IMG/VR virus record: IMGVR_UViG_3300025316_000016
Location: 1-64,000 of that record
DNA length: 64,000 bases
Origin: a virus
Direction: 5' to 3' (one strand)
Positions 4,545-60,588 of this stretch are shown here, in pieces (the first letter of the stretch is position 1; each line of letters begins with the position of its first letter). The notes beneath the pieces are model-generated. The model saw only the letters and a list, made by a program, of their open reading frames with translations. It made no database searches and had not been told where the DNA came from. The position numbers and the translations under genes were made by a program.

Positions 4545-5161
4545 TATATATTTCCTTTCATTTTACAGTTATCGAAATGCCATCTTTTAGCATTGCCTCT
4601 ATTGGTACTAATGTTACAGTATGGACATTCTATTAATATCTTCGCAGCATCACTTATATTTAGTAATGATTTTTCTGTGTGATAATTTGTAATGCCATTG
4701 TTCCAAGAAGACGTTCCCTTTCTGTTTTGTCCCATCAATATCTTTGATTCGTCAGAATGTGTTTTCCCAAGATTTTTACCCATAGAAGATGATCTGATCT
4801 TTTCTATACTTTCTCTAGTGTGGGTCGGATAATATCCAAATGTACCCTCTCCACCCAACGTCATATTATATCCATTAGAATTTTTGGACTTGATATATGA
4901 ATTATTCTCAACAATAAAGTAATTTTCCATTACATTTTTACAATAGTTTAGTTCTAGTGATTGATATAAAATAGACCAATAAAAGTTGCTCCACCCATAT
5001 TTTCTTATAGACCTATGAAAATATGTTTTATATCCTGGTTGACCAACACAATTGGCTTCTATCTTATGCCTACCTTTTCTTCTTTCAAAATCCTTAGCAA
5101 AACCAATATAGCATTTACCGGTGACTTTGTTTGTTGCTTTGTATATAGTATATATAATCAT
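4544..5161 (-). CDS. GIY-YIG homing endonuclease between genes 19 and 20
   Basis: 205 residues from ATG 5161, preceded by a good AGGAG site; longer in-frame starts would overlap gp19 and lack one. The N terminus has the GIY-YIG core, YTIYKATNKVTGKCYIG (residues 4-20), followed by an Arg-rich helix (FERRKGRH). A NUMOD3-like region (ESIEKIRSSSMGKN then THSDESKILMGQNRKG) follows. The C terminus ends in a zinc-finger-like ECPYCN...RWHFDNCK motif that recurs in the endonuclease at 61,744. It is free-standing in the 19-20 intergenic site and is predicted to cut a nearby allele in endonuclease-free relatives. Nuclease call firm, target inferred. Confidence 0.9.
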   Translation of the reverse strand: MIIYTIYKATNKVTGKCYIGFAKDFERRKGRHKIEANCVGQPGYKTYFHRSIRKYGWSNFYWSILYQSLELNYCKNVMENYFIVENNSYIKSKNSNGYNMTLGGEGTFGYYPTHTRESIEKIRSSSMGKNLGKTHSDESKILMGQNRKGTSSWNNGITNYHTEKSLLNISDAAKILIECPYCNISTNRGNAKRWHFDNCKMKGNI

Positions 5162-5258
5162 GCTGTATCTCCTATAAGATATAGAGTTAGTGGATGCTGA
5201 TACATCTCGACTAACACTTTCAAATAAAGGAGAGAACCGAAGTCCTCTCCTATGATGT

Positions 5259-5804
5259 TTATGATGTTGTTGCTGCATCCCAGTATTGGTATGCAAAAGT
5301 AACGCCATATTCTTCTATCTTATCGTTGTCGCCCCAATCTAGATCAATAGGTGCGATATCAACAGGAAACATACCAATAAAGTTGTATGTTTTTAGTATA
5401 TCACCTTGTTTGCCATACTGAGTAACCATTGCATCAACAGTATATGCAGATGCGCTGCTACTACCACCGGCAGCTCTAATATTGCTCACATGGGTATTAA
5501 TACCATTTGACCAAGATTCTAGTGCATTTCTTATAGTGAAATCTTCATCATTAACGATCTGTAATGACCAGTCAGCGAAAGTTCTGTTACCAGCAAATTT
5601 CATTTCACGACCAAAATAATACATTGGAATTGAACCCAAAGATGATCCTGGTAGTTGAGCACCTTTTGCCATGAATGTAGTTTTCTGTCCTGCAACAGAA
5701 CCATTAGCGACAAAAGTTGGGAATGTTAGTGTTACCGAAAATAGATTGGGACGAGCACCGTCACCAATCAGATTCGAACGAAATTCATTTACATTAAAAG
5801 ACAT
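5259..5804 (-). CDS. 19: Tail tube protein (T4 gp19 homologue)
   Basis: 181 residues; T4 gp19 is 163. It polymerises as hexameric rings inside the sheath to form the tail tube. The N terminus (VNEFRSNLIGDGARPNLFSV) and C-terminal strands (PVDIAPIDLDW, VTFAYQYW) match the gp19 fold. The same pattern is visible in the gp54-like protein at 47,674, a tube-initiator paralogue. It is directly downstream of sheath gene 18 with 15 bases between, in T4 order, and is transcribed from the late promoter at 7618-7625. Confidence 0.95.
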   Translation of the reverse strand: MSFNVNEFRSNLIGDGARPNLFSVTLTFPTFVANGSVAGQKTTFMAKGAQLPGSSLGSIPMYYFGREMKFAGNRTFADWSLQIVNDEDFTIRNALESWSNGINTHVSNIRAAGGSSSASAYTVDAMVTQYGKQGDILKTYNFIGMFPVDIAPIDLDWGDNDKIEEYGVTFAYQYWDAATTS

Positions 5805-5819
5805 TTGTATTTCTCCTTA

Positions 5820-7565
5820 TTAGACTGAACCGACAACTTCAGAGAAATTGACCGCTGTTCCAACCGCTATAAAGTTCAACTTAATGAAGTTAATAGATCG
5901 AGCTGGTTTAATGTATATATCACCAACAAATTGATTATTGTCTATAACATAACCGGTATTATTTGTAGTATCACAAACAACTTTGAAGTCTGTAATACCG
6001 CGTCTACCCTGAACATCTCTTAAGAAAGGTGCTACTAAAGAAATGAACTGTGCACGAGTAAAGTCATCATTGAATTCAAACAATGAATATTTAGCTGCTA
6101 ATGCGATAGCTTTCTCTAATACGATGAACAAACGTCTAACATTAATTCTATCAAATGCTGATGGTTTAGCTTGAAGAGTTTTGTCGCCGTATAAAATGAT
6201 ACCATTACCTGGGAATGACACGACTGGATTCACACCTTGTGGGTATAAAATGTCACGATTCATTTGATTAGGGTTCCATGCTAACTTAACAGCATTCTTG
6301 ATATTACCGCGATTATAACCAGCTGGTGACCACCAAGGATCTCTAATAGCATCTGTGAAAGCACATAAACCAGCAACATCACCATTTAATGGGATCCAGC
6401 GATACACATTGTTGTACTTGTCGTACATGTATTTCCAGCCAGAATCCACAACAACGTATGAAGATGAGCGTTGTAAACCAGTTCCATTGTCATTTAACCA
6501 TGTCATGATATTAGTAGATTCAAGACCATGTTGATTAACAACAGCAGAGATTGGTGGTGAGAAGAACGCTACTGCATCACCAGAACGACCAGCAACACTT
6601 CCAGCAGGAGTTACGATGTTATCAGCAATATGCTGCAATACAGTAACATCAGCATTACCCGTGATTACTAATGAGATATCGATCAGATCTTTATTTTCGA
6701 ACAAATCATATGCATTTATTAGATCGCCATCAGAAACATCGGCATCAGTACCACCAGCAAGTTGGATTTTTACATGACCACTTGTTGAATACGCTCTAGC
6801 AAAAGTAGTATTTGCTGCTACAGATCCCCATGTTGCTGTAGTATTTGCGTAATCAACTGAATCTATTGCATAAATGTATTGTGATTGTGATTCTAGTACA
6901 TTTCTATAATATGTAGAAACTCCGTTACCATCAATAGCATCCGATGATTTAGATACGTAAGGATATGCTTCTAATAATGCACCTTTAGTGCCAGTGATAA
7001 GGCCAAGAGTATCTGTTACGATAATGTGTATTTCGTCATTAGCACCATTAACATTAGTAGCGTATGAAGATGTTGTTGTTGGTCCACTGAAATTACCAGC
7101 AAATTCCCAAGCTTTGAATAGAGTAGTATTAGCAGAATCCCAAACATCAATAGAGATAGAATTACCTAATGCTCCAGCATAACGTGCAGCGAATGCTCCT
7201 AATGAGTTTGTAGCACCACCATGAAAATATTCATAGTCGTATATTGATTTGTTTGCTATTTGTACATTAGTTGTTGATGTGTTAGCATCAGCATTTAAAC
7301 TATTAGCACTTAAAGCTCTAACAACTCTTAAGTCATTACCATAAGCTAGAAAGCTAGATGCGGTCATGAATGAAATTGCTGTGTTATTGTTAGGTGCGCC
7401 AAATGTTACTGATAATTGGTTTTCATCAGATACTGGTATTGCTTGTAACGCTGGTCCCCAAACAAAATTTCCGGCGAATGCGCCAGTAGATGAAGACACC
7501 GCAGGTACGACTGTTGTTAAGTCATACTCTGTTACACTTACACCTGGAGATAACTGAATTGCCAT
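5820..7565 (-). CDS. 18: Tail sheath protein (T4 gp18 homologue)
   Basis: 581 residues; T4 gp18 is 659. It forms the contractile sheath around the gp19 tube. The N terminus LSPGVSVTEYDLT is the classic sheath start. The conserved C-terminal sheath region (about residues 350-581) holds motifs such as PLNGDVAGLCA, GDKTLQ and NVRRLFIVLEKAI. The shorter length relative to T4 reflects a reduced variable surface domain (about residues 100-330, rich in Asn, Ala and Thr). First gene after a late promoter. Confidence 0.96.
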   Translation of the reverse strand: MAIQLSPGVSVTEYDLTTVVPAVSSSTGAFAGNFVWGPALQAIPVSDENQLSVTFGAPNNNTAISFMTASSFLAYGNDLRVVRALSANSLNADANTSTTNVQIANKSIYDYEYFHGGATNSLGAFAARYAGALGNSISIDVWDSANTTLFKAWEFAGNFSGPTTTSSYATNVNGANDEIHIIVTDTLGLITGTKGALLEAYPYVSKSSDAIDGNGVSTYYRNVLESQSQYIYAIDSVDYANTTATWGSVAANTTFARAYSTSGHVKIQLAGGTDADVSDGDLINAYDLFENKDLIDISLVITGNADVTVLQHIADNIVTPAGSVAGRSGDAVAFFSPPISAVVNQHGLESTNIMTWLNDNGTGLQRSSSYVVVDSGWKYMYDKYNNVYRWIPLNGDVAGLCAFTDAIRDPWWSPAGYNRGNIKNAVKLAWNPNQMNRDILYPQGVNPVVSFPGNGIILYGDKTLQAKPSAFDRINVRRLFIVLEKAIALAAKYSLFEFNDDFTRAQFISLVAPFLRDVQGRRGITDFKVVCDTTNNTGYVIDNNQFVGDIYIKPARSINFIKLNFIAVGTAVNFSEVVGSV

Positions 7566-7617
7566 TTTTTTCCCCTTAATTAAAATTACTATATTGATAC
7601 ATGGAATATCATAATCT

Positions 7618-7625
7618 TATTTATA
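7618..7625 (-). promoter_or_regulatory. T4-type late promoter upstream of gp18
   Basis: Exact minus-strand TATAAATA in the 84-base gap between the terminase C-terminal gene and gp18, about 50 bases upstream of the sheath start. It would drive 18-19-(endonuclease)-20. Confidence 0.8.
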
Positions 7626-7649
7626 TAAAACTTGATCTATAAGTACCAA

Positions 7650-9437
7650 TCAATTTCTCATCAACTCACGAAAAAATCCAGCATATACTTCACCACTATC
7701 AGCTTTCTCCCATACATCACCATCTATCACATCAAACTCATTAGCGAATCCATCTTCAATGATGGGAGCTGGTAGGGATTCATCATCAACCTGGTTGAGA
7801 CTCTCAAGCTGAATTTGTTTTCTTATGTCATGTGCAACTATATCACGAAAGTATTTCTGTGTGGTAACCCATGCAAATATTACAAGAGTCATTGCTAAAT
7901 CATCATGTGCATCAGATTCGGCGGCAAATGAAGTTTTGTTAGCAACGAATGTTGTCAGTTCCGATACTGTTTCGAAGTCACAAATTTGTAGTTTGTTTCC
8001 CTCGATCAGAGTCTTTAAATTTGAACAACCTATTCTCTTCACGGCTGGTGACATTTTAAGTCCCATCTGCACACCCCTACCGAAACCACCACACAACTGC
8101 TGAGGTTTCTTGTTTCCGGTCATTATTTTGAACAGGTTTTCGTACTCAAGATCCTGGTGGATAATATCGGCAACTTGTGGGTTGTTATTTATTTCAACCA
8201 AGATGTATGCATCATTATACAAACGTGCTGCATTGTAAATGATAGTTGGGAACAATATCGGTGATATATTTGAGTTGCAATATGTTGCTACTTGTTTGTA
8301 TGGTGTCGATGATATGTCAAATACAGAAAACGATGATGCGTCCATGTTCCGACCTTCCGATACATCTACAGAGATACAATACAGATGGTCTTTTATTCCA
8401 TCATCATCGCCTTTGATTGGATACTCATAAATCTTTGTGTCATCGTGTTGTGTGATTGGGTCTATGAACACCAATTGTTGTAATTTAGTGCTTGATATCA
8501 GTGTATTAGTACTGCCGAGGAAATTACAATTAAACTCTTGATCAAAGTTATGATCACCGATGTTCTTTCGTGTTTCATCTTCCCACGCCTCATCACGGCC
8601 AGGCACTTGTGACCAATGCACCTCATACGTCACATAGTTGTTTCTTTTATTAATAGCATCTGTCCAAATCTTGTAGAACAGATTCATACCATTTGGTGTA
8701 GATACTATTATGATTTTAGTTTTAGTACCGGCAGTAATAACAGGATATACAGACTGCATAAACTCGTTAGCGATACTAGATGGTACGAATGCGAACTCAT
8801 CAAGAAAAACAGTGTTGTATGAACCAGATCGAGATGCTGATGATGACGTTGATGAAGCTACAATCTTTGATCCATTCTCTAATTCAATAAAACTTTTGTT
8901 CCATGTTATAATGCCTTGTTGTAACCAGATAGGAAGATTTTCATATGCTAACTGTAGCTTTCCTAAAATGTCTCGTGCAGTCTGACCTTTGTTAGCTAGA
9001 ATTGCTGTATTATGCGCGTCATGGAATAGTACTTCCCATAGCAGATATGCTACAGAAGTTGTTGTATTATGTGATAGTATGTCGTTAGTATAATATCTAT
9101 GATGGTCTGAGGCTACTGTTATATCATACATATTATCATCATAACCAAGATTTTGTATGTTCATAATGAGATCAACGCCATACCTAGTGATGATCTTAGA
9201 CTTATTGGGTATTAAATCTTTGCAGAATATTTCTGAATAATCCTCTAAAAATACTATATGGTTATCCGCACACAGAAATTCTAGACCAGATTCTGTGACT
9301 AATTTGAAAACTGTGTATGGAATAGTTTTATGTATTTGAGTTGCGTCACACCACCCGGAATCTGTATCTATTTCCCATTCAGTTATATCATAAGACTCTT
9401 CAAATTTTCTTGTTACTGTGTCAGAAATTATCTTCAT
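7650..9437 (-). CDS. 17: Terminase large subunit, C-terminal part with IntC of a split intein
   Basis: 595 residues. Residues 1-124 are the C-terminal fragment of a split intein: block B near GLEFLCADNH (His 60), block F MYDITVASDHHRYYTND (103-119), and block G ending ILSHN at 124. Residues 125-595 are the terminase C-extein starting TTTSVAYLLWE. It carries Walker B FLDEFAF, TPNGMNLFYKIW, and nuclease acids in SVDVSEGRNMD, LVEINNN and AHDDLAM. Splicing to the 86-residue N-extein at 10,643-11,044 would give a 557-residue gp17, restoring PRQVGK-TTTS. The start overlaps the end of the intervening endonuclease gene by 17 bases; an AAGGAG lies unusually far upstream (about 16 bases). Confidence 0.93.
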   Translation of the reverse strand: MKIISDTVTRKFEESYDITEWEIDTDSGWCDATQIHKTIPYTVFKLVTESGLEFLCADNHIVFLEDYSEIFCKDLIPNKSKIITRYGVDLIMNIQNLGYDDNMYDITVASDHHRYYTNDILSHNTTTSVAYLLWEVLFHDAHNTAILANKGQTARDILGKLQLAYENLPIWLQQGIITWNKSFIELENGSKIVASSTSSSASRSGSYNTVFLDEFAFVPSSIANEFMQSVYPVITAGTKTKIIIVSTPNGMNLFYKIWTDAINKRNNYVTYEVHWSQVPGRDEAWEDETRKNIGDHNFDQEFNCNFLGSTNTLISSTKLQQLVFIDPITQHDDTKIYEYPIKGDDDGIKDHLYCISVDVSEGRNMDASSFSVFDISSTPYKQVATYCNSNISPILFPTIIYNAARLYNDAYILVEINNNPQVADIIHQDLEYENLFKIMTGNKKPQQLCGGFGRGVQMGLKMSPAVKRIGCSNLKTLIEGNKLQICDFETVSELTTFVANKTSFAAESDAHDDLAMTLVIFAWVTTQKYFRDIVAHDIRKQIQLESLNQVDDESLPAPIIEDGFANEFDVIDGDVWEKADSGEVYAGFFRELMRN

Positions 9438-10707
9438 AATTTAACTTAAAACTCTCCTTAAATATTATTGTGGTTTTTACTTTGTCGCCCATCAGTTCAT
9501 TGATCTTATTTATCAACACATCAAGATCCACATTTTTAAGAGTTTCTGTCCAACCAAAATTGCCAACCATCTCCATTTTTGAAATTATATTGTCTTTAAA
9601 AAATACTTGCTTTAATAATTGCTCTGTTTGGAAGCAATGGCTTATATGCGAAACTATCTCTATAATAGTTGTGTAATCACCATTCCTAGAGTTTCGTTCT
9701 TTTACAGATTTTGATGTTATTCCGATCTTGTAAAAACCATTAGGTAACTCCAATAGATAAAAAATACCATTTCCTATAGATTTGTTGGTCCATAAATTTA
9801 CATATGATAACGAATTTGATTTCTTCTTGTTTATAGCATCAATCTCAGCTTGCGGCCTATCGTTAACAGATTCCTGCCACTTTTCCTGACGATTTTTCCA
9901 CACAACAAACCCATTCACATCACCATGTTTTTCTATGCATTTTTTTAATGAGAATGTTGACTGCCTATCTGATAATAGCTCTTTAGCCATTCCAACGTCA
10001 CCGTCAGTTTTCTTTAGCCAGTATCCTATACACGTACTGTCATTACCATTATCTTTTCTAGTTTTTGCTGCTATATAACTGAGGTCGGAATAATCTTTAT
10101 TGTGTGGATTAATAAACTTTATAGAAAATGGTGATAATTTACCTCCATGCTGATACGCGGGATTTTTATCGCCTAATACATTATCTCGAATTTTTTGGCA
10201 CTTTATGGAGCTTATTTTGTATTTGTGTTTATAATCATCTATGTCCATATTATGAACATGCATAATGTGAGGCCCTAGGTCTCCGCATTTAGCGCCACAT
10301 TCACCACAGATCAAATAATCATAACCATCAATTAACGAAACATCATCATATTTAGTTTGTCTTTTATTATATTCATGGACAGCGATTAGCCTCTTTCTTT
10401 CGGTGTCATAGTCAGAACCGCCAGTATTACACCCAAAACATATTGTTGATGATTTCTTTAATTTTTTGAACTTGTTGCCACAACCAACACAATCCGCAAA
10501 GTATCTGGTATAAAATCGATTATCCATAGACAAATCTATTAAATATCCTATGCGCTTAGATATAGAAAAGTCTTCTGGTACTAGCCCATTTGTATGCTCG
10601 ATTATATCTTGTGTATGTGCTTTGTATAAGTGGTGTGTCGCTTTATTGTATTTGTTTGTTTCTTTCGCGATTGTTTGGCAAATCTGTGTTATTTCTAGTA
10701 TATTCAT
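9421..10707 (-). CDS. Zinc-finger/GIY-YIG endonuclease inside the split terminase gene
   Basis: 428 residues from ATG 10707 with a strong AGGAG site. Residues 73-93 hold a CxxC...CxxC zinc pair. Residues 134-152 hold a second finger (CGECGAKC...HIMHVH). Around 265-280 is a WKNRQEKWQ segment common in phage endonucleases. Residues about 314-395 form a GIY-YIG-like domain of the T5orf172 style (GIFYLLELPNGFYKIGITSKS). It lies between the terminase N and C parts and overlaps both (65 and 17 bases). That is where a fractured-gene homing endonuclease sits relative to its split intein, so the likely target is the intein-free terminase allele. Confidence 0.85.
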   Translation of the reverse strand: MNILEITQICQTIAKETNKYNKATHHLYKAHTQDIIEHTNGLVPEDFSISKRIGYLIDLSMDNRFYTRYFADCVGCGNKFKKLKKSSTICFGCNTGGSDYDTERKRLIAVHEYNKRQTKYDDVSLIDGYDYLICGECGAKCGDLGPHIMHVHNMDIDDYKHKYKISSIKCQKIRDNVLGDKNPAYQHGGKLSPFSIKFINPHNKDYSDLSYIAAKTRKDNGNDSTCIGYWLKKTDGDVGMAKELLSDRQSTFSLKKCIEKHGDVNGFVVWKNRQEKWQESVNDRPQAEIDAINKKKSNSLSYVNLWTNKSIGNGIFYLLELPNGFYKIGITSKSVKERNSRNGDYTTIIEIVSHISHCFQTEQLLKQVFFKDNIISKMEMVGNFGWTETLKNVDLDVLINKINELMGDKVKTTIIFKESFKLNYEDNF

Positions 10708-11044
10708 AAAATTCTCCTATAGTGATTTCCATTATATCACCAGTTGCTTTATTACGCAACCGTATAGTAGTATTTATATCGCAGCACTTTCCAACTTGGC
10801 GTGGACACTTGGTAATAACGAATCTGTTATCATGGAATGATTTTATCATTTCCTTTTGGAAATCGTACATTTCGAAAGGTACTAAACCATGATCTAGTGT
10901 GATAATTTTGATGTATCTAGAGAAGTATATTGGGTCTCTAGCACACTTCACAAATTCTTCTACTTGTTGCTGTGTATAGTCTACATCGACACCAATTTTC
11001 TTTAGTAGGGGGTTATCACGATATGCTGTAGATTTAGTAGCCAT
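10643..11044 (-). CDS. 17: Terminase large subunit, N-terminal part with IntN of a split intein
   Basis: 133 residues. Residues 1-86 are the gp17 N-extein, ending in the first half of the ATPase P-loop (CPRQVGK). Residues 87-133 are an intein N-fragment beginning Cys-Cys-Asp (block A: CCDINTTIRL then GDIMEITIGEF). At 47 residues it is far shorter than a normal N-intein of about 100, because block B sits on the other fragment: an atypical early split. The first Cys (87) is the predicted splicing nucleophile. The gene overlaps the end of gp16 by one base and the endonuclease start by 65 bases. Alone it cannot form a functional ATPase. Confidence 0.92.
   Translation of the reverse strand: MATKSTAYRDNPLLKKIGVDVDYTQQQVEEFVKCARDPIYFSRYIKIITLDHGLVPFEMYDFQKEMIKSFHDNRFVITKCPRQVGKCCDINTTIRLRNKATGDIMEITIGEFYEYTRNNTDLPNNRERNKQIQ
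10771..10778 (-). promoter_or_regulatory. T4-type late promoter embedded in the IntN coding sequence
   Basis: Exact minus-strand TATAAATA formed by the codons for D-I-N-T just after the intein Cys, about 64 bases upstream of the endonuclease start. It would let the endonuclease (and perhaps the terminase C part) be transcribed independently. It could be chance, but position and exact match fit T4 late promoters. Confidence 0.55.
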
Positions 11045-11445
11045 TACTCACCTTTTAATAATAATTGTAACTCTTTTGTACTACCAACAAATATTGCTTT
11101 GTCTATCTTAGTATTAGATTCTTTCTTATTATCCATATCACGCATTTGTTTCTGCATGGCAATAAGTTCTTTGTTTGCTTCGACTACGTTCTTCAACAGA
11201 GTACCAAACACCTCAAATGCTCTTGGTTGCTCGGATTCCTTAGCAATTCGTAGTATATCATCCATAGCATCTTTGCCTTGGTCGATAACATCCTGGAGAT
11301 TGTCTCGTGATTGTTGATACGCATCAGCGAGATCTTGTTCTAGATTTAAGTTGCTTGGTTGGTCTCGTATAATCACAGGTTTTTCTGTGGTAATACTAGG
11401 TGTCACATCAAAAATCTTTGACATTGAATCATCAAATTTAGTCAT
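11044..11445 (-). CDS. 16: Terminase small subunit (T4 gp16 homologue)
   Basis: 133 residues; T4 gp16 is 164. It recognises concatemer DNA and stimulates gp17 ATPase. The central region (about residues 35-105) is predicted helical and coiled-coil, as in gp16, with the segment ARAFEVFGTLLKN-like (here PRAFEVFGTLLKNVVEANK). It lies directly upstream of the split gp17 and downstream of gp15, in T4 order. Call rests on synteny, size and helical pattern. Confidence 0.9.
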   Translation of the reverse strand: MTKFDDSMSKIFDVTPSITTEKPVIIRDQPSNLNLEQDLADAYQQSRDNLQDVIDQGKDAMDDILRIAKESEQPRAFEVFGTLLKNVVEANKELIAMQKQMRDMDNKKESNTKIDKAIFVGSTKELQLLLKGE

Positions 11446-11447
11446 AA

Positions 11448-12185
11448 TTAGTTATATTCTTTTATTGTTGTATTTGCAGTCCAATTGGAGTTCACATTTG
11501 CGTTTAGTGGGCTGGGTACCACATTTATCTGTACTAGTTCTTTATTAGTATCTTCGTCAATGATATTAGTGATTGCGTGTTTAATCAATCCAGCAGTAGT
11601 AACATCTCTATATAGAAACGCTTTCGCTTTGAAATTCAGCGACCAAATAACCATTCTAGTATCTGAGCTGCTATCACCTTCATAAGTTATCTCATAATTG
11701 GTGTCGGTCAGGATTATTGGAATTTCCTTTGTGATATCCATCTCAGGAATCAAATTAATCTTAATAGTATAATCTGGTGTGAAGAACGGTAATATATGTT
11801 CTATGATCTGAGTACCATCTTCAATATTCCTAACATAAATGTATAATGAATAATCTATATCGTATGGAACTGGATTGTACTGTGCATTAATCGTGCCAGG
11901 TCCGACCAGATTAAAGTTTCTTGTATTAGTATTTTGTTTTCTAGCATGGTCATACGAAATGCCAGTCATTTCAAACGACATTCTAGGAAGTGTTATTTGG
12001 ATTTTCTTATCTGCGTCAGGATCACTCTGGAGTCTCATTACATACAATTCTTTCGCTGCATGTGCAATAGGAACTATAAAACGTTCTTGTTCAGTATCAT
12101 CAGGATTGTATCGAACTAATGTTATGTTCGAAAATAAATCAGAAAACCCAGTAGTGACATTACGAATAACTCTGTTATAACTCAT
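11448..12185 (-). CDS. 15: Tail sheath stabiliser / tail completion protein (T4 gp15 homologue)
   Basis: 245 residues; T4 gp15 is 272. It forms the hexameric ring that caps the finished tail and binds the neck. Signature segments include FSNITLVRYN, QERFIVPIAHAAKELYV near residues 34-50, and ITLPRMSFEM followed by the GISYDHARKQNT motif around 75-90. Its start overlaps the end of gp14 by four bases (ATGA), indicating coupling. Gene order 13-14-15-16-17 is exactly that of T4. Confidence 0.95.
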   Translation of the reverse strand: MSYNRVIRNVTTGFSDLFSNITLVRYNPDDTEQERFIVPIAHAAKELYVMRLQSDPDADKKIQITLPRMSFEMTGISYDHARKQNTNTRNFNLVGPGTINAQYNPVPYDIDYSLYIYVRNIEDGTQIIEHILPFFTPDYTIKINLIPEMDITKEIPIILTDTNYEITYEGDSSSDTRMVIWSLNFKAKAFLYRDVTTAGLIKHAITNIIDEDTNKELVQINVVPSPLNANVNSNWTANTTIKEYN

Positions 12186-15071: not shown

Positions 15072-15578
15072 TTAAACTCCATGATTTGCAAAGTTACCAC
15101 AATATTTTTCTCGTGCTTCAATAGCAACAAGACCTGCTAAACCTAAATCATCAAAAAAACCTATATGCACTTGTTTATTATTAATAGTTAGTTTACATTG
15201 CCATTTAGATTTTTGATTACTCCAAAGAACATTTTTATATCCTGAAGTATTGCTTATCGGAATTTTACTATTTAAGGCATTTTCAGACTTTGTGCAAGAT
15301 CTCAAGTTTTCTATATGATTATTTTCTCTATTACCATCTATATGGTCAATGTGTTCTGGTATAAATCCATAAGCCATTAGATACACTATTTGGTGGGCAT
15401 ACATTCGTACTTTTCCTATACCAACTTTAATATATCCATGCCCACTATGGCATCCTACTGGCTTACCTGACCTTACTGAAATTCTGCCTAAGCTAATAAC
15501 CCTAGTTTTCCAACACAATACTCCATCAATCACTTCATATCTAGCTAAGGCTTTTTCTTGGGTTAAAATTGATTCCAT
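15072..15578 (-). CDS. HNH homing endonuclease with AP2-like DNA-binding domain
   Basis: 168 residues. The HNH core is at about residues 75-110: YAHQIVYLMAYG, then HIDHIDGNRENNHIENLR, with paired His and Asn residues that coordinate metal. The C-terminal 55 residues (SGYKNVLWSNQKSKWQCKL...HIGFFDD) are an AP2-like DNA-binding domain. The start lies one base past the stop of a truncated gene fragment and the stop two bases before an intact paralogue of that fragment. It is therefore an inserted mobile gene in a duplicated or rearranged locus. Confidence 0.92.
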   Translation of the reverse strand: MESILTQEKALARYEVIDGVLCWKTRVISLGRISVRSGKPVGCHSGHGYIKVGIGKVRMYAHQIVYLMAYGFIPEHIDHIDGNRENNHIENLRSCTKSENALNSKIPISNTSGYKNVLWSNQKSKWQCKLTINNKQVHIGFFDDLGLAGLVAIEAREKYCGNFANHGV

Positions 15579-15579
15579 T

Positions 15580-15672
15580 TCAATTAACCTGTGAGGTCAC
15601 GACATAATCAAGCATACCGTTGACATCCGGTTTGCAATTCATCGCTACGATGTTCCAAGTGTTTGTAATCAT
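15580..15672 (-). pseudogene. N-terminal fragment of the 14,737-15,069 gene family
   Basis: A 30-codon frame, MITNTWNIVAMNCKPD... ending TSQVN then stop. It aligns with the first 30 residues of the intact protein at 14,737-15,069 (TWNI..xNC.P......DYV). It lacks the WTLSGTDG core and everything after it, and ends exactly where the HNH gene begins. It reads as the 5' remnant of a duplicated or interrupted gene; a functional micro-peptide cannot be excluded. Confidence 0.7.
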
Positions 15673-57892: not shown

Positions 57893-57900
57893 TATTTATA
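57893..57900 (-). promoter_or_regulatory. T4-type late promoter overlapping the end of phoH
   Basis: Exact minus-strand TATAAATA about 30 bases upstream of 57,863. It makes the two basic-tailed proteins and the exported nuclease late genes, in an otherwise early/middle region. Confidence 0.75.
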
Positions 57901-58666
57901 ACCCCAAATCTTCACACGTAATGATGAATGATTTGACGAATTTTGATCTAACTATATCGGCGGTATCGAATTGTATTAATGTAAACTCGTTCATGGCATT
58001 AGCAACAGATAACATAGAATTAAACCCAGTAGAATCATTTCTAGTTTTTAGCAAATCTGTCTGAGAATAATCACCACAAAGGATTATTTTAGTATTTTTT
58101 CCTAATCGTGTCATAATGGTTTTAATTTCCGCCCAATTAGCATTCTGGATTTCATCAAATATTATTATACTATTATCGAATGTTGTGCCTCTAAGAAAGC
58201 TTGAGCTGACGAATTCTATGTGGTTTTGTTCGACCAATCGGGAATATGCATCCTTACGATTAAATAATTCTGCACACAATTTCATATAAGGGTCACTATA
58301 TACTGCCAGTTTTTCATCGGCATCACCCGGAAGATATCCCAATTCCCTTGTTGGGACACATGTCCTTATGATAACAACTTTTTGAAAACTATTGCCTTTG
58401 TCTAAAACCTGTTCTAGTGCTCGATAAAGTGATATTGCGGTCTTACCTGTTCCGGCAGAACCGTACAACATAATAGCTTCATCTTCATTGGCGTATGCCT
58501 CGAAGAATAATTTCTGGTTCTTTGTTAATGGTTTAAATGTTTTTAAATCCTCTATTCGTAACTTGAGTCTATTTGATGGTGGTGCTGATCGGTCATTACT
58601 TGCTTGGTATTTTGATAAATCTTCAAAATGTGTGTCCACTAGTCGAGATGCCGGTTTACGAGCCAT
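57896..58666 (-). CDS. phoH: PhoH-like ATPase
   Basis: 256 residues from ATG 58666 with an AAGGA site; a longer frame lacks one. Walker A GSAGTGKT at 69-76, Walker B IIIFDEIQN near 150, and RTCVPTRELGYLPGD, the PhoH signature. The N-terminal 45 residues are basic. PhoH proteins are frequent in aquatic phages; the role in phage is not settled (RNA helicase/nuclease activity has been shown for related host PhoH2-type proteins). Its 3' end overlaps a late promoter. Confidence 0.92.
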   Translation of the reverse strand: MARKPASRLVDTHFEDLSKYQASNDRSAPPSNRLKLRIEDLKTFKPLTKNQKLFFEAYANEDEAIMLYGSAGTGKTAISLYRALEQVLDKGNSFQKVVIIRTCVPTRELGYLPGDADEKLAVYSDPYMKLCAELFNRKDAYSRLVEQNHIEFVSSSFLRGTTFDNSIIIFDEIQNANWAEIKTIMTRLGKNTKIILCGDYSQTDLLKTRNDSTGFNSMLSVANAMNEFTLIQFDTADIVRSKFVKSFIITCEDLGL

Positions 58667-58757
58667 AATTTTCCTTGTTAGTTTGGGGGAATGTGCCAGA
58701 ACATTTTCCAGCACTAATTATATATGAGTTTCCTATTTTGGTTAATATTTTCTCCAT
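58656..58757 (-). CDS. Possible micro-protein upstream of phoH
   Basis: 33 codons, beginning MEKILTKIGNSYIISAG and ending QTNKENYGS, with its stop inside the first codons of phoH. Fills most of the 126-base gap. No clear ribosome site and no relatives known to me, so coding is doubtful; it may only couple phoH translation. Confidence 0.35.
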   Translation of the reverse strand: MEKILTKIGNSYIISAGKCSGTFPQTNKENYGS

Positions 58758-59253: not shown

Positions 59254-60588
59254 CTATTTAAATTTCCAATCGTTGCAATAATCAAATTTGTGTAACTGCT
59301 TTAATCTATCTTCACATGAGTCACCGATATCTGTACGATATGCAGGATCATTACCTAATTTTACCTGTTTCACTACTTTATAAGCAGCATCTTTTGCCTG
59401 TGTTATCGTGTCGCCAATGCCCATACACACACATATGTAAGTACCAGCAGTGCCCCACTCAGGGTAGTTTTCTACAACTTCATCATCAACCATCTTAATA
59501 GTAGATGATAGCTTGATTTCACACGGTGATACCATAGAAATGTCTTTCACATCATCAGTGATTACCGGATAATCTAGATAGTCTTCGATAGGTTTCTTTG
59601 CAAATGGGAAGTCTGAACACGCCATGACAACACCAAGAGCAGTCTCGCCGCCAATAATTTCAAATGTGTCCTTCCCATTGATTAGATCGACCATCCATTG
59701 AGCAGGATCACCAACGATTAATGATTGTTGAATATTGTGTATAGGGTAGCCTGGACGTTGTGTAAATTCCATTGGCCAAGGAGTACCATCGTTTTCATCT
59801 ACTATAACACTAATATCAACGAAACCAACATATTTCAATTCGTGCAATAGCTTTTCTAGGGGTTTCAGCATTATATCAGCTAGTTTAGAATCTTTAGTGT
59901 ATCTTAGCGCCGTCCCCATTTCTCCAGTGCTAACACCAAGATCCCCGTTCATCAGTTTCTTGTGCTCGAAGTTCTCACAGAACACGCTATTGAATCCATT
60001 AGGACCAAACATACCCATAACAGCAAGTTCAGTACCTTTCTTGAATTCTTGAAGAATGAACTTCGTGATACCTGCTTTCTTACCAACTTTCTTCATACGA
60101 GTAAGAAACCCGATCATGTCTGCTGGATCTTTAGCTAGATACGTTAAAGATTTATCTTCTACAGATCCACAAGGTTTGCAGCAGTATCTATTTGGATTTG
60201 CTTTGACGAAAGCTATTGCTTGGTCATAATTGGAAAATTCGGTTGATGGTATTACTTTGTTGCCACAATCTTTTATAGCGTTTTGACCATACATTCTATC
60301 TACTTCTAATCGTGCAGATCTTTTATCTGGTCCAAAAACTGGCAACCCTTTTTTGCGAAGTTCTAGAACTTCATCCATGAAATCTACATTATCTGCCACG
60401 AATATCAAATCGCAGTGTTGTGCATATGATTTAGCTTGTTGCCAGTTGTCGAACTTGTCAACAAGTCCTTGGCCAATGGGTTCGGCGATAGGTCCTACTG
60501 TGATTAATTTAACTGTGTGTCCAGCGGCGATGCAGTCTAGGCACCAGTGCACACTTAGTGCATATGGATCGATACTCAAGATATTCAA
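59254..60588 (-). CDS. PurD-like ATP-grasp ligase (phosphoribosylamine-glycine ligase family)
   Basis: 444 residues, about the size of bacterial PurD (430). N-terminal Rossmann-like part (MNILSIDPYALSVHW; CDLIFVADNVDFMDEVLEL), ATP-grasp middle (YCCKPCGSVEDKS, FILQEFKKGTELAVMG, GFVDISVIVDENDGTPWPMEFTQRPGYP) and a C-terminal GARS-C-like region (VACSDFPFAKKP, TAGTYICVCMGIGDTI). PurD adds glycine to phosphoribosylamine in purine synthesis. The N-terminal P-loop-like GSGGREHA of PurD is not evident, so the substrate may differ. Auxiliary metabolic gene. Confidence 0.8.
   Translation of the reverse strand: MNILSIDPYALSVHWCLDCIAAGHTVKLITVGPIAEPIGQGLVDKFDNWQQAKSYAQHCDLIFVADNVDFMDEVLELRKKGLPVFGPDKRSARLEVDRMYGQNAIKDCGNKVIPSTEFSNYDQAIAFVKANPNRYCCKPCGSVEDKSLTYLAKDPADMIGFLTRMKKVGKKAGITKFILQEFKKGTELAVMGMFGPNGFNSVFCENFEHKKLMNGDLGVSTGEMGTALRYTKDSKLADIMLKPLEKLLHELKYVGFVDISVIVDENDGTPWPMEFTQRPGYPIHNIQQSLIVGDPAQWMVDLINGKDTFEIIGGETALGVVMACSDFPFAKKPIEDYLDYPVITDDVKDISMVSPCEIKLSSTIKMVDDEVVENYPEWGTAGTYICVCMGIGDTITQAKDAAYKVVKQVKLGNDPAYRTDIGDSCEDRLKQLHKFDYCNDWKFK

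Follow-up and report, generated by a model that had tools for sequence, protein, structure and literature searches.

A phage terminase gene apparently fractured within its Walker A loop by an atypically split intein, with a putative homing endonuclease gene between the halves

In the IMG/VR virus record IMGVR_UViG_3300025316_000016, the gene for the large terminase subunit (terL, gp17) is spread over two minus-strand genes, with a nuclease gene between them. The stretch analyzed (the window) comprises 64,000 nucleotides (nt), positions 1 to 64,000 of that record. Taken as a whole, the arrangement is very probably best explained as a fractured gene whose halves would be joined by protein trans-splicing, the nuclease between them being a modular homing endonuclease. 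The three minus-strand genes interlock: 10643-11044 (the N-gene, 133 amino acids, aa), 9421-10707 (the nuclease, 428 aa), and 7650-9437 (the C-gene, 595 aa). An earlier note on this DNA, made from the letters alone, had read gp17 as two such proteins, and the translations agree with it in the residues at both junctions (CPRQVGK/CCDINTT, a 47-residue N-intein beginning Cys-Cys-Asp, and ILSHN/TTTSVAYLL, after a 124-residue C-intein; the slash marks the junction here and below). The parts, all on the minus strand, are as follows.

10787..11044, minus strand: terL (gp17) N-extein, 86 aa, ending in CPRQVGK, the first half of Walker A (translation; PHROG TerL E=3.4e-19; aligned with S-RIM2 TerL)
10646..10786, minus strand: N-intein, 47 aa, with Cys1, strands, helix alpha1 (IGEFYEYTRN), and a non-conserved tail, the stop lying at 10643-10645 (aligned with residues 1-29 of the contiguous intein L129)
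9066..9437, minus strand: C-intein, 124 aa, with block B (CADNH), penultimate His, and terminal Asn (ILSHN) (TIGR01443; VidaL match; tblastn against contiguous phage TerL inteins)
7653..9065, minus strand: terL C-extein, 471 aa, with Thr at +1 (TTTS) and the remaining ATPase and nuclease domain (Pfam Terminase_6N/6C; PDB 3ezk gp17)

Both open reading frames (ORFs) have TerL homology, and the product of the C-gene matches T4 gp17 (PDB 3ezk) at E=3e-65. Joining the exteins gives a T4-type TerL of 557 aa, the length that the note had predicted, with the complete P-loop PRQVGKTTTS. Against intein-free TerLs, the joined extein is 53% identical to that of Synechococcus phage S-RIM2 and 45% identical to that of Caulobacter phage Cr30, and both alignments are gapless at PRQVGK/TTTS. 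An assembly or sequencing error, or a decaying terL, is scarcely credible as the source of this layout. The sequence is a single metagenomic contig, which leaves room for error, but the nuclease gene is itself intact where the alternative frames over it hold 40 and 49 stops, the same three-part layout recurs in dozens of independent contigs, and the exteins are 87% identical to those of the nearest relative, L094 (its TerL C-gene is 86% identical, and its gp13-gp16-like neighbors are 83-88% identical).

Judged from its sequence, the interrupting element is a split intein with Cys1 and Thr+1, inserted at GK/T in Walker A. The class 1 end residues are present (K86/Cys1 and HN124/T), and the C-part scores above the cut-off of TIGR01443 intein_Cterm (NCBIfam). 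The joined halves, which served as query in sequence searches alone, have VidaL as their best PDB sequence match (E=3.4e-5) and match contiguous phage TerL inteins over all 171 residues at 33-36% identity (tblastn). Since block B (TES...CADNH) is carried by the C-fragment, as had been claimed, the split into fragments of 47 and 124 aa is atypical (S2-like, as PMC13014065 terms it). The AlphaFold2 (AF2) model of a contiguous homologue from IMG/VR, L129, is a Hint domain with a predicted local distance difference test (pLDDT) score of 86. It has strands E7-12 and E18-22, helix H23-44, and a sole disordered stretch at residues 44-61, and its top PDB fold match is VidaL at about 22% identity. The split position of the window maps to this disordered loop, just past helix alpha1.

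An RNA intron carrying the nuclease, with the apparent intein ends being intron-flanking coding sequence, is a very improbable alternative. T5orf172-type nucleases do lie beside RNA-spliced terL in phages, for example at the ICP1 terL intron (PMC10448857), and in Campylobacter phage IBB_35 an intein and an intron are described as breaking up terL (PMC3322345). However, no Rfam intron was found in 7400-11600 even at E<=1, where the only hit was a sub-threshold small nucleolar RNA (snoRNA), both ends are conserved as intein at the protein level, and relatives with a contiguous ORF exist.

With trans-splicing, the two precursor proteins would be produced separately, and the 47 aa N-intein would dock on the 124 aa C-intein to form one complete Hint domain. 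The intein would then excise itself by standard class 1 chemistry, using Cys1, the His of block B, the penultimate His, the Asn at its end, and the Thr at +1, joining K86 to T87 and rebuilding the Walker A loop PRQVGKTTTS in a terminase of 557 aa; neither TerL half would be capable of ATPase activity by itself. The putative homing endonuclease would cleave intein-free P-loop genes and in this way spread intein and nuclease together, and the split would mark the point of the intein at which the nuclease gene was inserted, in the loop that follows helix alpha1.

The two TerL fragments might instead cooperate non-covalently, as genes in pieces that need no splicing. They are encoded by two compact ORFs with their own starts, and such cases exist: a phage ribonucleotide reductase is broken by a homing endonuclease and its fragments reportedly associate non-covalently (study cited in PMC3322345). 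This too is very unlikely, because the break separates K from T within the Walker A loop, and because full intein halves with conserved catalytic residues are retained even after loss of the nuclease, as in L094. The same split intein is found there with just 68 nt between the half-genes, and this gap region holds an N-terminal nuclease stub (MIALNIVQICRTIINETIKYYT and a stop) resembling the window nuclease (cf. MNILEITQICQTIAKETNKYNK) as well as a C-terminal nuclease remnant resembling relatives with an EDxHD-type domain. These remnants indicate that the nuclease was deleted while TerL stayed in two halves, and a split that outlives its nuclease is expected if the split intein itself works, which is consistent with trans-splicing.

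The neighboring endonuclease of the earlier note is the ORF between the halves, overlapping the N-gene by 65 nt and the C-gene by 17 nt, with the following features.

9421..10707, minus strand: putative homing endonuclease gene, 428 aa, in the +1 frame relative to the N-gene (ORF; relatives lie between intein halves)
10714..10718, minus strand: ribosome-binding site AGGAG for the nuclease, superimposed on the I-G-E codons of the N-intein (sequence)
10210..10323, minus strand: MucR/Ros-like zinc-finger region, nuclease aa 129-166 (Pfam PF05443, E=2.1e-5, just under the cut-off)
9814..10023, minus strand: conserved nuclease middle domain (RQSTFSLKKCIEKHG...RQEKWQ), hallmark of the family (common to GIY-YIG and EDxHD members)
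9508..9777, minus strand: putative GIY-YIG-type catalytic domain (FYLLELPNGFYKIGITSKSVKER...TEQLL) (motif, alignment, AF2 secondary structure)

The sequence CTATAGGAGAATTTTATGAA reads I-G-E-F-Y-E in the intein frame and supplies the ribosome-binding site and ATG in the +1 frame. The start-region motif ATAGGAGA[AT]TTTTATGA recurs in many relatives, and the offset between N-gene and nuclease is +1 in 38 of the 39 family members with such an overlap. The zinc-finger region is matched in 6 of 23 aligned members. The middle domain follows the family-wide pattern RQSTFSLEKCIEKYG...RQ.KWQ and is shared with relatives that end in an EDxHD-type domain instead of GIY-YIG, so the catalytic module appears to be swapped. 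In the window the motif FYLL...YKIGIT...R...E is seen, and relatives reach T5orf172/MUG113 at E-values down to 4.6e-6.

Some results weigh against this interpretation of the locus. The window nuclease itself matches MUG113 weakly (E=0.13), so that its putative assignment to the GIY-YIG type draws on the motif and the relatives only, and a Foldseek search with its model (predicted template modeling score, pTM, 0.38) returned nothing significant. An intact gp17 gene elsewhere in the genome was held by the earlier note to argue against splicing; none is present elsewhere in the record, though with 64,976 bases the record is a fragment and the check is therefore incomplete.

The association of nuclease and split intein extends across a family. 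With only the nuclease middle domain as query, 171 relatives were found in IMG/VR and two in GTDB genomes, and a scan with the C-intein gave 205; the best 80 were kept from each of the two larger sets. Family counts are counts of top-ranked matches; sequences were pooled and reduced at 90% identity, shared ancestry persists among them, and catalytic types were tallied by regular expression. A C-intein lies downstream of 82 of the 91 pooled full-length nucleases and is lacking for 9, in a tally where L120 was entered as split though its nuclease is nested and where L041 is a spurious short match. Nuclease-only scans gave 57 unique full-length nucleases, of which 47 precede a separate C-intein ORF, 1 is nested, and 9 have no C-intein. 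Nearly all of the split cases have a C-intein of 93-175 aa, which makes them atypical splits, and a Walker A sequence stands at the junction for at least 75 of the 82 C-intein-associated nucleases. The C-exteins belong to Terminase_6, DnaB, AAA, AAA_23 (SbcC/gp46-like), clamp-loader, ResIII/DEAD (UvsW-like), and PhoH families, and Clp is the target in L003. PhoH is targeted by this element family in a huge phage (L008/L012); the PhoH-like gene of the window (57896-58714, minus strand) is without an intein.

Nuclease-family members without an intein adjoin intact P-loop genes in five of nine cases: the nuclease precedes an uninterrupted terL in Cr30, L026, and L091, precedes a RecA-like gene in L081, and follows PhoH in L047. 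In Caulobacter phage Cr30 (L004/L056), the nuclease (3890-4912 in L004) is followed by an intact intein-free terL (4959-6608) and looks free-standing. The patchy distribution of the nuclease-intein element suggests that it may be mobile. Several TerLs (L029/L031, L054, L058, L059, L080, L090, L134) have split inteins at two or three sites, namely Walker A, near Walker B (/C..DEFAF), and /CEFLG. At L029 4196-9107, and also in L102/L103 and L134, three split inteins (Walker A, near Walker B, /CEFQG) place terL in four genes. Vibrio phage vB_VmeM-32 (L009) has two inteins that are split in different ways, one in UvsX, which is followed by a SegG-like GIY-YIG nuclease, and one in the gp41 helicase, with an atypical split at GVN/TGKS and an EDxHD nuclease. 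The same nuclease/split-intein arrangement occurs in two bacterial bins, a Treponema metagenome-assembled genome (MAG; L092) and an Erysipelotrichaceae MAG (L093), which are probably phage contigs.

In four lineages (L089/L110; L104/L105; L117/L118 with L126 and L142/L144; L120) TerL and intein form one ORF of 932-1130 aa, within which the +1 frame holds the entire nuclease (278-313 aa). The continuous TerL-intein ORFs with an intact EDxHD nuclease nested in this way are at the following positions.

L089, 4250-7276
L104, 3169-5967
L117, 415-3348
L120, 3052-6036
L126, 3148-6111
L142, 3148-6540

Between the four lineages, the nucleases are only 42-60% identical and the TerL-frame fillers 24-33% identical, and the filler is stop-free in all four although its sequence is not conserved. 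Codon shuffles that keep the nuclease protein leave a mean of 14-23 stops in the filler and never none (0 of 2000 for each). Since the filler is stop-free in four diverged lineages and never so in the shuffles, the open frame is under selection. L129 corresponds to the L117 type after an in-frame deletion of the nuclease, both ends of that filler being fused in its linker. The window itself is not a nested form, as 49 stops interrupt its TerL frame over the nuclease and the N-gene and C-gene are in different frames.

Four states are thus found: a free-standing nuclease by a P-loop gene, a nuclease nested in a contiguous intein, a split intein with nuclease (the state of the window), and a split intein without it; they may have followed one another in this order. 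A broader account has about an even chance of being right. Under it, the atypical splits of the family would arise because a homing endonuclease gene of P-loop genes sits in the +1 frame in the intein at the post-alpha1 loop. The intein ORF would have stayed open in some lineages, with 840-940 nt read in two frames; elsewhere, as in the window, the filler would have acquired stops and frameshifts that made the contiguous intein split, after which the nuclease could be swapped or lost. One nuclease-intein clade would thereby have entered the Walker A loop in at least seven families of phage NTPases, with TerL in up to four pieces.

Known systems resemble parts of this arrangement. The likeness to AceL-TerL and VidaL proposed earlier holds for VidaL, but AceL-TerL is ruled out as the same intein allele by insertion site and sequence. 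The AceL-, GOS-, and Cat-TerL inteins share with the window the TerL host, a short N-fragment, and a split after helix alpha1 (the S2 position, PMC13014065), but they lie at /CEFLG with Cys+1 and have fragments of 25/104 and 37/115 aa (PMC11766414), compared with GK/T, Thr+1, and 47/124 aa in the window. L108 carries a split intein at a second site, followed by CEFLGSTNTL, and this intein matches the Cat consensus (PDB 6dsl) at E=3.7e-19, the first C-extein residues included; Cat-like inteins therefore sit at a TerL site other than the GK/TTT of the window. The window intein is nearest to VidaL (PDB 6vgv), which differs in being split earlier, with an N-fragment of 16 aa (S1, PMC13014065), and to the contiguous Ackermannviridae TerL inteins (Vibrio phages VAP7, VP-1, and Kuja; Kuttervirus CBA120 and relatives; hosts Vibrio, Salmonella, and E. 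coli). The latter share the GK/T site and are homologous over residues 1-171, but form one ORF without a nuclease. The N-fragment of the window is short, as had been noted, but at 47 aa it exceeds the range of 15-37 aa given for atypical split inteins in PMC13014065, in part through an unconserved tail.

Fractured terL genes are already known from isolated Campylobacter phages. In phage F379 (L010 2070-5416), terL is in two genes with an atypical split and a T5orf172/GIY-YIG nuclease of the same family between them, but the insertion is three residues earlier (PRQ/SSKS) and the nuclease is annotated as an intron-associated endonuclease. Fractured genes with split inteins and an intervening homing endonuclease were reportedly described by Dassa et al. 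in 2009. For IBB_35, a report of 2012 gave terL as broken up by an intein and a homing endonuclease (PMC3322345). The earlier note's view that such an arrangement is seen here in full phage context does not stand, since the record is a 65-kb IMG/VR fragment and F379 and IBB_35 precede it. AceL NrdHF is likewise a broken gene with split-intein parts at the ends and a putative homing endonuclease of GIY-YIG type between, but it is split at the usual site (98/48 aa; PMC7891396), compared with 47/124 aa, near the N-end, in the window. The window differs from fractured genes also in its nuclease start, which overprints the N-intein, and in the single middle domain with swappable GIY-YIG and EDxHD ends. 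In ShiLan, an out-of-frame nuclease lies within a methylase (PMC11855218), nested in another frame of an ORF kept open as in L089, L104, L117, and L120, but without an intein; in the L089-type relatives the nested frame is inside an intein that could remove the filler. No precedent for an out-of-frame nuclease inside an intein was found in a literature search limited to open-access text.

Two further genes of the window, both on the minus strand, may be mentioned. An HNH_3 endonuclease ORF (15075-15596, E=6e-16), a second putative homing nuclease, lies in the structural gene cluster, and a protein with PurD-like (GARS, ATP-grasp) domains, unusual for a T4-type phage, is encoded at 59254-60588.

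What is new is the family-wide link of one nuclease family with atypical splits and Walker A loops, together with the overprinted intermediates. Contiguous, overprinted, and split forms of one intein all occur in the family, the last with or without the nuclease, which makes it possible to test how atypically split inteins arose, and many new Cys1/Thr+1 split inteins with short N-fragments would be available for protein engineering. If the interpretation is correct, this phage would have its essential packaging motor only once trans-splicing had completed the ATP-binding loop of the motor, and the nuclease family would be aimed at the most conserved motif of phage motors.

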